This document shows, in pieces, positions 26,051 through 33,387 of a stretch of DNA of 45,624 nt. Below the pieces are notes generated by a model. The model made no database searches. It was not told the origin of the DNA and was given only the letters and a program-made list of their open reading frames with translations. This stretch comes from Gemmatimonadota bacterium. Its GTDB lineage: Bacteria; Latescibacterota; UBA2968; UBA8231. Every line of letters starts with the position of its first letter. Position 1 is the stretch's first letter. Where the stretch lies: positions 4,013-49,636 of the forward strand of contig PATE01000012.1 of the NCBI GenBank assembly GCA_002712305.1, read 5' to 3'. Position numbers and translations under genes: made by a program.

Positions 26051-27349
26051 TCACCTTCCAAGGCGATGAAACCATACCTTCACCTGCGACGGTCGTGGTG
26101 CAGGTCCTTCCCCCGCTGATTTCGACAGGCGTTCGCTCACAGTCGCTGCGTCCGACGCCTCGAGGTCGCGCAGCGAATGGTATCCGGCGGCCACCAGCTG
26201 ATTGCCAAATTGGTGGCCAATTCCTTCATGCATATATAGTTCGACCGTGTCCCTCACACGGGCCACGGTGACTGCCTCGACGTCTTGTTCGAGCTGTCGC
26301 CACACGCGTTCACTCCCCAGGCCCACCAGATCGGTCAGATGTTCCACACCTTGCTGCCGAAACCACTTCAGATCGCTCTGCGTGAAGGCCCGTATCTGCT
26401 GCACCCGGGGTGTCGTTGAGGTCACCGTGACACGCTGCATGTGATCGTACACCCCGTGACTGAACAGCAGCGCCAGCAGCGGAATCACCGTGCGAAAGAT
26501 CTTCGATCGTGGCGGCCCCTGTTGAGTAAAGTCACCCAGGGGTGGGCACAGTCTTGCCCAGACGAGGAGTCGGTAGGTGCAGGCGCACTCCACCGCAAAG
26601 GGTGGAAAACCGACGAACCCAAGCAGGGGCATCTCGAAGAGTTTGAGTTCGTCAAAGAAGGGTACCGTGTAGATCCATTTGGCTCGCGCCCAGAAGTTGA
26701 AGAACTCCCAACAACCGCCGGCGATGAATCCGGCGATCAGCAGGCGCAGGGTCGGACCCAGATCACCTCGTTCCAGCTGGCGCAGGATGCCGTCGATCCC
26801 GAGGCGATGATTCAACGATGCCAGAATCAGGAAGGTGCCGCCCCACACGAGCGGATAGAAATGCACGGGGTCGGCGACCCACAGGACAAAGAACCCAACG
26901 CCCCCAGCCACCAGCACCCGTCTGTGGTTCGACGACAGCTGCAATGGCGGGATCCGCACCGAGCTGCTCCAGCGGGTCCGCAGCCAGTGGTCGATCCAGA
27001 AGATGCCGGGGAAGACGGTGCCAAAGGCGACGAAGGTCGCCAGCCACCTAAGAAGCGGTTCATCCTCAACGAGGATGTAGTACCAGTTCTGCAGACGGAA
27101 ATTGCACAGCTCGTAGAAGAACCAGCTGACGGCCGACCAGAAGCCGATCTGCACCCATCCGGCATCACCCACACGCGCCAGCAGAGACGAGCCCTCACCA
27201 CGCGCGATCAACTGGTCAAACGTTACGATGAGGCCCGCCCAAGCACATAGATAGAAGTGCGTCGCGATCGGCTCTACACCCGCAGCGGCCAGGGCATAGG
27301 TCACCCCGAGCCAGAGGGGTCCACACCAGGTGGCCATCATCCTGTTCAC
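26051..27349 (-). CDS. Polytopic membrane protein with helix-hairpin-helix-like C-terminal tail
   Basis: A 432-aa protein of unknown function. Residues about 1-310 form roughly eight to nine hydrophobic helices with many aromatic residues; conserved-looking blocks are FYELCNFRLQNWYYI, CWEFFNFWARAKWIYTVPFF and PLLGFVGFPPFAVECACTYR. The last 110 residues are soluble and show two short repeats (WFRQQGVEHLTDLVGLG and GIGHQFGNQLVAAGYHSL) that look like the paired helix-hairpin-helix units of DUF4332. GTG 27349 overlaps the hydrolase stop (GTGA); ATG codons at 27340 and 27337 are alternatives. It is the last gene of the radical SAM cluster. Confidence 0.75.
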   Translation of the reverse strand: MNRMMATWCGPLWLGVTYALAAAGVEPIATHFYLCAWAGLIVTFDQLIARGEGSSLLARVGDAGWVQIGFWSAVSWFFYELCNFRLQNWYYILVEDEPLLRWLATFVAFGTVFPGIFWIDHWLRTRWSSSVRIPPLQLSSNHRRVLVAGGVGFFVLWVADPVHFYPLVWGGTFLILASLNHRLGIDGILRQLERGDLGPTLRLLIAGFIAGGCWEFFNFWARAKWIYTVPFFDELKLFEMPLLGFVGFPPFAVECACTYRLLVWARLCPPLGDFTQQGPPRSKIFRTVIPLLALLFSHGVYDHMQRVTVTSTTPRVQQIRAFTQSDLKWFRQQGVEHLTDLVGLGSERVWRQLEQDVEAVTVARVRDTVELYMHEGIGHQFGNQLVAAGYHSLRDLEASDAATVSERLSKSAGEGPAPRPSQVKVWFHRLGR

Positions 27350-29206: not shown

Positions 29207-30073
29207 TCAAGCCGGCAGGTAACTTCCGGCAAATCCGTCGATGCTGACACCCACCCGGCCGGGCAGGTGTTTCCTGGCGATGTCGACCACTTCATCTCGG
29301 TACGACAGACGCGTGCTCCCCGCGATGACCTGCTCCATCGCCTGTGGAAGGGAGGTCGCCGCCGTACGCCGACCATCGGGGCTGCCATCACCACCGATGA
29401 AGTGGTCGATGACCGTCGCGTCGGCCTGGCTGGCGATCCGCGCAAAGAAGGCGTCCGCATCGACGATCGGCAACAGAGGAGAGACGGTGACGACGACGAA
29501 GATTCCCGATTGTCGCAGCGTGTGGGCCGCGGCAAAGCGTCGGTCGACGGAACAGGCCGCAGGCGGCAGGCCCGGCAGATCCTGCTGATCGGACTCGATG
29601 GAGATGTGCACTCGCAGGCGACACACCTGTGAAAGGGCTTGGAGGGTGGACAGGTCGTCGAGGATCAGATGGGAATGGGTCTGCAGAACCAGTTCGTCGG
29701 GTGGCGACTCGAGCATCGCCTGCAGGATACGGCGACTGAGACGATATCTGCGCTCCTGGGGTACGTAGGGATCGGTGGAACTGGACATGAACACGGAGAA
29801 GGCGCCACCCCGCGTTTCCGCCCAACGCCTCTCCCGCTCAACCTGTGATCGATACAGATCGGCTGCGTTTTCCCGCACGTCGAGAAAGGATCCCCAGCGC
29901 TGGCCATGGGTGAGCAATCTATTGTGCTGCACGTAGCAGCCGACGCCACACAGAGCATTGCCGTAGGTGCAGCCCCGATAGGGTTGTAGCGAGTGGGTGG
30001 TCACCGACCGCAGAAAGCCGGACGTTCGCGTCAGAATGCTGCGAGATGTGGTCTGATTCAGGTCGATGGCCAA
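29207..30073 (-). CDS. Radical SAM protein with atypical CX6CX3C motif
   Basis: A 288-aa SplB-like radical SAM protein. In place of the canonical CX3CX2C the sequence has PYRGCTYGNALCGVGCYVQH, giving C35-x6-C42-x3-C46; I checked this codon by codon. Downstream barrel strands are intact (FMSSSTDPYVPQERRYR, ELVLQTHSHLI, RVHISIESDQQ, VTVSPLLPIVDAD). TTG 30073 is preferred because GAGGA lies 8 bases upstream; TTG 30127 would overlap the divergent phosphatase start. It heads the cluster with the alpha/beta hydrolase and the membrane protein. The reaction is unknown. Confidence 0.82.
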   Translation of the reverse strand: MAIDLNQTTSRSILTRTSGFLRSVTTHSLQPYRGCTYGNALCGVGCYVQHNRLLTHGQRWGSFLDVRENAADLYRSQVERERRWAETRGGAFSVFMSSSTDPYVPQERRYRLSRRILQAMLESPPDELVLQTHSHLILDDLSTLQALSQVCRLRVHISIESDQQDLPGLPPAACSVDRRFAAAHTLRQSGIFVVVTVSPLLPIVDADAFFARIASQADATVIDHFIGGDGSPDGRRTAATSLPQAMEQVIAGSTRLSYRDEVVDIARKHLPGRVGVSIDGFAGSYLPA

Positions 30074-30107
30074 TAGCGTCGTCCTCGGCGGCAGGCGCGG
30101 GGAGTCG

Positions 30108-31249: not shown

Positions 31250-32017
31250 ATGGCTGTCCTGTCCGCGACTGAGAATCCATTTGGTGGTGTCATTCCGGCG
31301 CCAGATGGTTTGGATTCGGATCCGAAAATTTTCTCCGAGCAACTCGAGAGATCACTGATTTCTTGGCGTGAGGACGGATATCTGGTCGTCTGGTTGGAGA
31401 TTACGCACGCCCTGGCGGCTCTGATTCCCGTGGCCACGACGGCTGGTTTTCGCTTCCACCACAGCGGCGAAGACTACCTGATGCTCACTCTGCAGTTGAA
31501 GGATGGCGCCTTCATCCCCGCCCATGCTTCGCACTACATCGGGGCCGGTGGGGTGGCGATCAACGAACGGGACGAGCTGCTTGTGGTCAGCGAACGGTAT
31601 CACCGGGATGCTTCGCGCCCACCTCGCTTCAAGTTGCCCGGTGGTGCACTCCACGAGGGAGAACATCTGGCCGAGGCCGTGGTGCGGGAGGTCCAAGAGG
31701 AGACGGGCATCGAGACGGTCTTTGATGCGCTGGTCTGTTTCCGTCACTGGCACGGATACCGCTACGGCAAGTCGGACATCTACTTCGTCTGTCGACTGCG
31801 CCCTCTGAGCGAGCAGATCACGATCCAGGAGGAAGAGATCGCCGAGAGTCGCTGGATGCCGGTGCAGGAATATCTCGACGCGGAACACGTGAGCGACTTC
31901 AACAAGCAGATCGTGATGGCTGCTCGACAGCACCCGGGGATCGTGCCGACACCGCTGGAGGGGTATGGCGATCCAGAGCGCTTCGAATTCTTCCTGCCGC
32001 CGGGCCAAGAAGCGTGA
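31250..32017 (+). CDS. Nudix hydrolase, NUDT6-like
   Basis: A 255-aa protein with an N-terminal domain like that of eukaryotic NUDT6/plant NUDT8 (SWREDGYLVVWLEITHALAA, then TTAGFRFHHSGEDY) and a C-terminal Nudix domain. The Nudix box is intact at G132 to G153 (GALHEGEHLAEAVV, REVQEETGI). The N-terminal extension is usual in this subgroup and may bind substrate. ATG 31250 is the natural start; a GTG two codons upstream and longer forms lack support. It overlaps the sulfatase start by four bases (GTGA), so the two are co-translated. Confidence 0.9.
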   Translation: MAVLSATENPFGGVIPAPDGLDSDPKIFSEQLERSLISWREDGYLVVWLEITHALAALIPVATTAGFRFHHSGEDYLMLTLQLKDGAFIPAHASHYIGAGGVAINERDELLVVSERYHRDASRPPRFKLPGGALHEGEHLAEAVVREVQEETGIETVFDALVCFRHWHGYRYGKSDIYFVCRLRPLSEQITIQEEEIAESRWMPVQEYLDAEHVSDFNKQIVMAARQHPGIVPTPLEGYGDPERFEFFLPPGQEA

Positions 32018-33387
32018 CGATACGACCGAATCTGCTGCTGTTGATGACGGATCAGCAGCGCGCCGATGCCCTGGGTTGTGTCAGCGACTGGGTACGCACG
32101 CCTCACCTGGATCGACTGGCTGCCGAGGGTGTGCGTTTCAGCAACTGTGTCACCACGTCACCGGTGTGTATACCCGCCCGTCTGAGTCTGGCCACCGGCC
32201 TGTATCCCCACAACACGTGGGTGTGGGACAACGGCCAACATACCCTCGACCCTCGAACTCCAACCTGGATGCAGGCCGTGCGCGCCGCCGGCTATCGAAC
32301 CAGTCTTTTTGGCAAGACCCATCTGCATCCACACGGTGGGGATCTGCGCGATCGAGAACACCTGATGCATCAGTATGGTCTGGATGATGTGGATGAGATC
32401 GGTGGCCCACGAGCCAGTGCGCGGGTCCTGTCCCACATGACGGCGCGATGGGAAGAGGCTGGCCTCTGGCAGGCGTATCGGGAGGATCTCGAGAATCGTT
32501 TCTCGACCAAGCCCCATGTGGCGCGTCCATCTCCGCTGCCCCTGTCAGAATACGCCGACACCTATGTTGGCCAGCAGGCCAACGACTACCTGCGCGACTA
32601 CGACGGTGATCAACCCTTCTGCTGCTGGGTCAGTTTCGGAGGACCGCACGAACCGTGGGACACGCCGGACGAATTCGCCCAGCGTTATGACCCCGCGCAG
32701 ATGCCTGCGGCCCTGCCCCAGCCCGAGTGGGCGGCCGATTCAACGGGTCGTCCCCGAGGGGCGCTGGACGACCGGCTGTCTCAACGGCCCGATCCGACGG
32801 CGGAGGATGTGGCCGAGTTGAGGGCCAACTACGCGGGCAATGTGGAACTCATCGATGATCAGATCGGCCAGATTCTGGCCACCATCGAGTCTCGAGGCGA
32901 GCTAGACAACACGCTGATCGTGTTTACGTCTGATCACGGGGAGATGAATGGCGACTTTGGTCTGATCTACAAGAGCCACTTGCTCGACCCGGCCGTTCGC
33001 GTCCCCTTGATCGTGCGCCCACCGGCGGGGGCTTCGGGTGCGGTCAACGATTCACCGGCGGAATGGATCGATGTGGCTGCCACGCTCTGCGAGACAGCAG
33101 GTACATCTGCCCCGGGCTTCTCGCGCTCCCTGCTGCCGGGCGTCACCGACGCCAAGCACCATCATCGAGCGGGAGCGATCAGTGAGATGAATGGTGAAGT
33201 CATGTGGATCGATCTGACCCACAAGGCCGTCATCAACACCGAGGGCGAGGTGTATCTGCTGTTCGATCGGACCGCCGATCCTCACGAGCAGACGAATCTG
33301 GCGGGCCAGCCCTCGGCGGCGGATCTGGAAACCGAACTGAAGCAGCGAATCCTTCAACGACTCGTGCAGACCCAAGTTTCGCGGTGA
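32014..33387 (+). CDS. Sulfatase (arylsulfatase A family, Cys-type)
   Basis: A 457-aa sulfate ester hydrolase. The formylglycine site is CIPAR (Cys52) followed by LSLATG, the Cys-type signature that needs a maturation enzyme not present in this window. Metal ligands lie in LLLMTDQQRAD at the N-terminus and VFTSDHGEMNG near residue 310. FGKTHLHPHGG also matches the active-site layout. There is no signal peptide, so it may be cytoplasmic. The GTG start overlaps the Nudix stop. Likely substrates are sulfated sugars, in line with the sugar-acid genes nearby (inference). Confidence 0.94.
   Translation: MTIRPNLLLLMTDQQRADALGCVSDWVRTPHLDRLAAEGVRFSNCVTTSPVCIPARLSLATGLYPHNTWVWDNGQHTLDPRTPTWMQAVRAAGYRTSLFGKTHLHPHGGDLRDREHLMHQYGLDDVDEIGGPRASARVLSHMTARWEEAGLWQAYREDLENRFSTKPHVARPSPLPLSEYADTYVGQQANDYLRDYDGDQPFCCWVSFGGPHEPWDTPDEFAQRYDPAQMPAALPQPEWAADSTGRPRGALDDRLSQRPDPTAEDVAELRANYAGNVELIDDQIGQILATIESRGELDNTLIVFTSDHGEMNGDFGLIYKSHLLDPAVRVPLIVRPPAGASGAVNDSPAEWIDVAATLCETAGTSAPGFSRSLLPGVTDAKHHHRAGAISEMNGEVMWIDLTHKAVINTEGEVYLLFDRTADPHEQTNLAGQPSAADLETELKQRILQRLVQTQVSR

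Follow-up and report, generated by a model that had tools for sequence, protein, structure and literature searches.

The window, the whole stretch of 45,624 nucleotides analysed here, carries a gene that very likely encodes a radical SAM cluster enzyme whose CX6CX3C cysteine spacing had a single origin. Radical SAM proteins are best known by their canonical spacing, CX3CX2C, through which many such enzymes have been found. Alignments and trees indicate that the variant spacing is an inherited trait of a small, unnamed clade. We found no combination of CX6CX3C with radical SAM in the open-licence literature, and what appears to be new here is this clade of proteins resembling spore photoproduct lyase (SPL), with a spacing for which we found no earlier description, together with its canonical sister. 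With a second cluster ligand that appears to have moved and a close canonical sister at hand, the pair offers a clean natural experiment on change in the cluster loop. Because the query scores below the Pfam cut-off for Radical_SAM, searches that require the canonical motif or that cut-off overlook proteins of this kind.

The gene and its proposed cluster cysteines

The gene lies on the minus strand (29207-30073), with a TTG start at 30073, a TGA stop and no internal stop codons. Its GC content is 62.5% (61.0% for the window), and the GC values at the three codon positions (0.65/0.49/0.73) follow a pattern typical of a real gene. The three cluster cysteines are encoded at 29969-29971 (C35, TGC), 29948-29950 (C42, TGT) and 29936-29938 (C46, TGC). 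The features referred to below are as follows.

29207..30073, minus strand: coding sequence of the predicted CX6CX3C radical SAM protein, 288 aa, TTG start (open frame and full-length homologue alignment)
30082..30086, minus strand: GAGGA, likely ribosome-binding site, 9-13 bases 5' of the TTG start (judged from the upstream sequence)
29936..29971, minus strand: cluster loop C35-TYGNAL-C42-GVG-C46 (cysteines invariant in alignment A1 and in 51 aligned variant rows; CX3CX2C here in 28 canonical relatives)
29942..29953, minus strand: residues 41-44 (LCGV) at the insert, predicted to form an additional turn of helix (AlphaFold2 model read with DSSP; absent from the canonical sister model)
29594..29596, minus strand: E160, just past strand beta-4 (ISIESD) (Glu in 52/52 variants; Thr, Pro or Ala in the canonical sisters)
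29366..29392, minus strand: C-terminal signature G228-D-G...G234-x-R236 (common to the canonical sister group; mostly missing in more distant relatives)

The initial annotation held that the frame was intact and the spacing no reading error, and the homologues bear this out. When 84,980 species genomes were searched, 33 loci came up, and L003-L031 among them all read C-x6-C-x3-C at 41-72% identity to the query. With whole-genome searches added, CX6CX3C was found in 52 distinct sequences, the query counted; L014, L158 and L159 carry it as well, beyond the 52. The proposed check on conservation of the spacing came out in its favour, with C35, C42 and C46 invariant in the homologue alignment A1. 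Cysteine codons across the 52 sequences are split about 38:14 between TGC and TGT, and this use of both codons suggests that the residues are maintained while the codons drift. The block GCTYGNALCGVGCYVQHN had been described as strongly constrained, which is true of G34, C35, C42, G43, C46 and Y47, all strictly kept, but not of the remainder, which is variable. No other cysteine column is invariant among the 51 aligned variant rows; cysteine stands at position 151 in 39/51 and at position 25 in 14/51. One further sequence, L160 (G1204:C85:35506-36366), reads GCAYGRTLCGVPDYA, with the third cluster cysteine replaced by Asp (GAC) and the rest of the protein ordinary; it may reflect ligation of the cluster by Asp, decay of the gene or an error in sequencing.

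The record titles of L003-L031 name Gemmatimonadetes, Latescibacterota, Planctomycetota, Nitrospina, Nitrospirales, Acidobacteria, Deltaproteobacteria/Myxococcales, Kapaibacterium and one Gammaproteobacteria, about nine phyla in all as inferred from these titles. Searches with profile A1, seed genomes included, found the clade in 6/64 genomes of the window's own phylum. The corresponding counts, among genomes drawn from each phylum, were 17/294 in the phylum of the Planctomycetota MAG (18 matches, among which L082 is canonical), 6/148 in that of the Nitrospirales MAG, 3/188 in that of the Myxococcales MAG (13 matches, 10 of them canonical), 4/199 in that of the Acidobacteria MAG (L160 counted) and 1/398 in that of the Gammaproteobacteria MAG, this one being the seed itself. 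Given these low counts per phylum, the occurrence of the clade is patchy. Most genomes that carry it have one copy, and G528 has two. At G009:C115:5386-5688, adjacent matches to query residues 238-286 and 2-53 share one open frame of 112 aa, which could be either a gene with its middle deleted or an assembly fault.

A single clade and its canonical relatives

The suggestion that the variant spacing marks a distinct subfamily is upheld by the trees, in which the variants form a well-supported single clade. A careful tree of 81 rows, built from all columns, requires one change of spacing. The 53 rows with CX6CX3C, among them the divergent L083 and L001, which duplicates the query, group together with support of 97/81, and a branch divides them from the rest in 98% of 200 bootstrap trees. 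When motif columns 33-51 were removed in a quick tree, with the long or duplicate rows L083, L002, L035 and L001 left out, 51 variants remained apart from 26 canonical rows (SH-aLRT 98). A second quick tree, from which the motif columns, L083 and other long rows were again omitted and to which six rows were added (L158, L159 and L161-L164), recovered the same separation (SH-aLRT 99). The split is thus independent of the motif itself. L083 is placed by the full tree, motif columns included, on a branch of length 2.63, and its position inside the clade is uncertain. Canonical CX3CX2C homologues, named at the outset as what would speak against a subfamily, do exist, but as the sister group and outgroups and never within the clade, so that the subfamily claim stands.

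Outside the clade, the nearest relatives are 11 canonical sequences (L082 and L094-L103), mostly reading GC[EQ]FSC.YCYV and mostly from the phylum of the Myxococcales MAG. The profiles of the clade and of this sister group align with hhalign at E 1.1e-62 over 262 columns, indicating full-length homology, and the two groups share an SH/THSLQPY..GC start, the motif SS.TDP..P.E, the signature GDG..G.R[ST] and an SPL-like model. The sisters differ from the clade in having CX3CX2C, the Glu of the FEP motif, Thr, Pro or Ala at position 160, Arg at 133 and Asp at 224. All of the more distant relatives that we read are likewise CX3CX2C.

Comparison with these relatives suggests how the spacing changed. 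In a MAFFT alignment, the canonical second cysteine is aligned with query position 39, which is Asn, Arg, Gly or Ser in the clade, and C42-G43-V44-G45 fall in a four-column insert. The third cysteine and the Tyr that follows it align with the canonical CY, and this Tyr is invariable. On other branches, part of the clade has an aromatic residue immediately preceding the third cysteine (CGVYCY, CGVFCY), resembling the canonical YCY. Given that the sister group is canonical and yet homologous over its full length, the simplest reading of the alignment is an insertion of four residues that shifted the second cysteine, the role of second ligand having passed to a new one. This insertion probably occurred one time, in the ancestor of the clade. 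For the change to count as a gain and not a loss, the tree must be rooted within the canonical proteins, a likely position given that every outgroup is canonical.

Two further ideas on the history of the variant were considered and set aside. A mobile origin was rejected, as the SPL-like relatives matched with A1 on viral contigs (n=4, L139-L142, contigs of 102-395 kb) are all canonical CX3CX2C; matches on plasmids had identities of <60%. The second idea was that relocation of a glutamate had accompanied the change of spacing. All variants (52/52) have Glu at position 160 and have lost the FEP Glu (position 170), which is present in 11/11 sisters and 12/15 more distant relatives. However, L161 (G1223:C479:7611-8408), which lies on a long branch (1.3) near the canonical sisters, has CX3CX2C and yet shows Glu at the E160 position and FAP in place of FEP. 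The coupling is thus not strict, and we discarded it as evidence.

Predicted fold and likely chemistry

The SplB-type radical SAM assignment made initially is supported by profile matches, by the AlphaFold2 model and by SPL as best fold match. The query scores 21.1 bits against Pfam Radical_SAM (PF04055), below the gathering cut-off of 29.5, and the same model matches 23/28 clade members (best E 1.7e-7). NCBIfam radical SAM families match the query at E 1e-12 to 1e-23, with scores far below their cut-offs. The matches to PA0069, mob_pairB and Rv2578c lie at E 1e-19 to 1e-23, and their bit scores against the curated cut-offs are 82/360, 79/410 and 68/430, respectively; no curated family in Pfam or NCBIfam was reached at cut-off by the query. 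The closest named family is PA0069 (NF033668), which matches residues 5-214 at E 3.4e-23. It differs in that the C-terminal third of the query is unmatched and in that L002, the relative in the query's own genome, is canonical CX3CX2C. The literature searched offered nothing on the function of PA0069 or Rv2578c.

The AlphaFold2 model built with A1 (pLDDT 95, pTM 0.92) has an intact predicted barrel. Compared with the PDB by VIA-align 2, its top matches are six SPL entries (Z 16.8-17.6, rmsd 3.2-3.7, 240-247 residues). The best of these has Z 17.6 and rmsd 3.4 over 243 residues, the next family, comprising other radical SAM enzymes, reaches 14.4, and the PDB entries listed as matches are of radical SAM type, in keeping with that barrel fold. 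SPL is also the best match (Z 17.7-18.1) of the canonical sister model, which has a pLDDT of 91.7. By DSSP, a helix at residues 41-44 of the query precedes the helix starting at 47, and the sister model has no such turn.

We therefore describe the protein as a putative radical SAM enzyme that stands alone and belongs to the spore-photoproduct-lyase-like superfamily. A single [4Fe-4S] cluster would most likely be held by C35, C42 and C46, with S-adenosylmethionine bound at its fourth iron. As in other radical SAM enzymes, reductive cleavage of S-adenosylmethionine would then yield the 5'-deoxyadenosyl radical. The insert between the first and third cysteines (CG plus two residues) would move the second ligand from +4 to +7 and add a helical turn. 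By analogy with the superfamily, cluster and SAM binding are expected from the fold, the three conserved cysteines of the loop at the first beta-strand and the residues kept from the canonical relatives at the barrel mouth (T100, P102, E107, R179 and P199), and radical formation should follow on the same basis. It is conceivable, though unlikely, that the remodelled pocket, with its inserted turn, its relocated second ligand and a Glu that has left the FEP loop for the end of beta-4, holds SAM in a distinct manner and supports a reaction novel for SPL-like enzymes.

A very improbable alternative is that the protein no longer performs radical SAM chemistry and that its cysteines serve a different metal site, for instance zinc or a structural cluster. 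The deviation from the canonical motif, the disappearance from the variants of the FEP Glu found in SPL and in most canonical relatives, and the Asp that replaces the third cysteine in L160 would all fit such a loss. Against it stand the predicted intact barrel and the conservation of the five barrel-mouth residues, and a zinc site would leave the conservation of the remaining pocket unexplained.

Gene neighbourhood offered no conserved partner. When open reading frames were compared all-against-all around 30 loci and, in a broader set, around 63 (in 47 of which the target gene was picked by the gene caller), sharing was limited to close relatives; a Pfam tally of 122 adjacent proteins likewise returned no partner shared outside them. 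The window neighbours His_Phos_1, NUDIX, Sulfatase, AXE1-like esterase and Meth_synt_2 recur just in near relatives, except for the sulfatase, which recurs at a few loci. The window's sulfatase gene (32014-33387, plus strand; Pfam E 4.9e-48) carries SPVCIPAR, a Cys-type sulfatase signature. Proteins with this signature require formylglycine maturation. On the minus strand, a 432-aa frame at 26051-27349 has no Pfam match at E 0.001 and is probably a membrane protein, judging from its hydrophobic stretches. In four Nitrospirales/Nitrospiraceae loci (L023, L025, L026 and L030), the gene lies directly 5', on the same strand, of a putative orotate phosphoribosyltransferase gene and an ATP synthase cluster, both named by sequence reading.

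That the protein is itself an SPL, or another enzyme of direct DNA-lesion repair, with a modified cluster loop is highly improbable. SPL is the best fold match and belongs to the same superfamily, and the variants have a median pI of 9.0, which is compatible with nucleic-acid binding, albeit weakly. However, Pfam SPL matches 2/28 clade members (best E 0.066) and nothing in the query's own genome, and neither it nor NCBIfam photo_TT_lyase matches the query at E 1. The clade's taxa are not known spore formers, which also counts against an SPL. The SPL reaction requires a hydrogen-donor cysteine (C141 in B. subtilis) and two tyrosines (PMC5368176), and an SPL-type reaction is unlikely here because this donor has no counterpart in an invariant fourth cysteine of the clade. 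Given the lack of a family at cut-off, of a conserved neighbour and of a fourth conserved cysteine, the protein is probably not a lyase. As a tentative guess by analogy with SPL, the substrate of the proposed radical SAM enzyme might be a nucleobase or a nucleic-acid target.

Comparison with known radical SAM systems

Proteins of DUF5131 (PF07505; L143-L150 and L152-L155) read C-x6-C-x2-C in an NPxxGC...CYA context, apparently a little-described variant of a radical SAM-like motif; we found no paper naming it in the open-licence literature. Descent of the extended loop from a common ancestor with these phage Gp37/Gp68-like proteins, instead of insertion in an SPL-like protein, is scarcely credible: DUF5131 weakly matches 8/28 clade members (over the N-terminal region in those read individually), both groups have the context NPxxGC......C..CYA, and 6/8 DUF5131 sequences checked have V-S/T-V/I-E at the beta-4 position, but the hhalign probability is only 21%, as against E 1e-62 over the full length for the canonical SPL-like sisters, and the second spacing is x2 in DUF5131 and x3 in the clade. 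The best clade member scores 18.8 bits against a DUF5131 gathering cut-off of 28.9, and the query has no match.

Variant cysteine spacing has several precedents among radical SAM families. AprD4 has the spacing CX3CX3C. Other non-canonical spacings are those of ThiC (CX2CX4C), HmdB (CX5CX2C), PhnJ (CX2CX21CX5C) and QueE (CX14CX2C) (PMC4389238). The initial annotation was thus right to cite ThiC as a precedent; its other example should be HmdB and not HmdA, and variant spacings are less rare than it claimed, as that paper and DUF5131 illustrate. SplB (PF20903 / TIGR04070), the best fold match at Z 17.6, differs from the clade in its 15% identity, in the hydrogen-donor cysteine that the clade does not conserve and in the spacing, and the SPL models do not match the query. 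DUF5131 shares with the clade the six-residue gap from first to second cysteine and differs from it in its CX6CX2C motif, with weak profile similarity. ThiC, HmdB, PhnJ and QueE indicate that a [4Fe-4S] cluster can bind SAM even when the cysteine spacing is altered; these four and AprD4 are unrelated subfamilies with other spacings. The nearest analogy is QueE, in which a single loop is extended and the site is otherwise canonical (PMC4389238).
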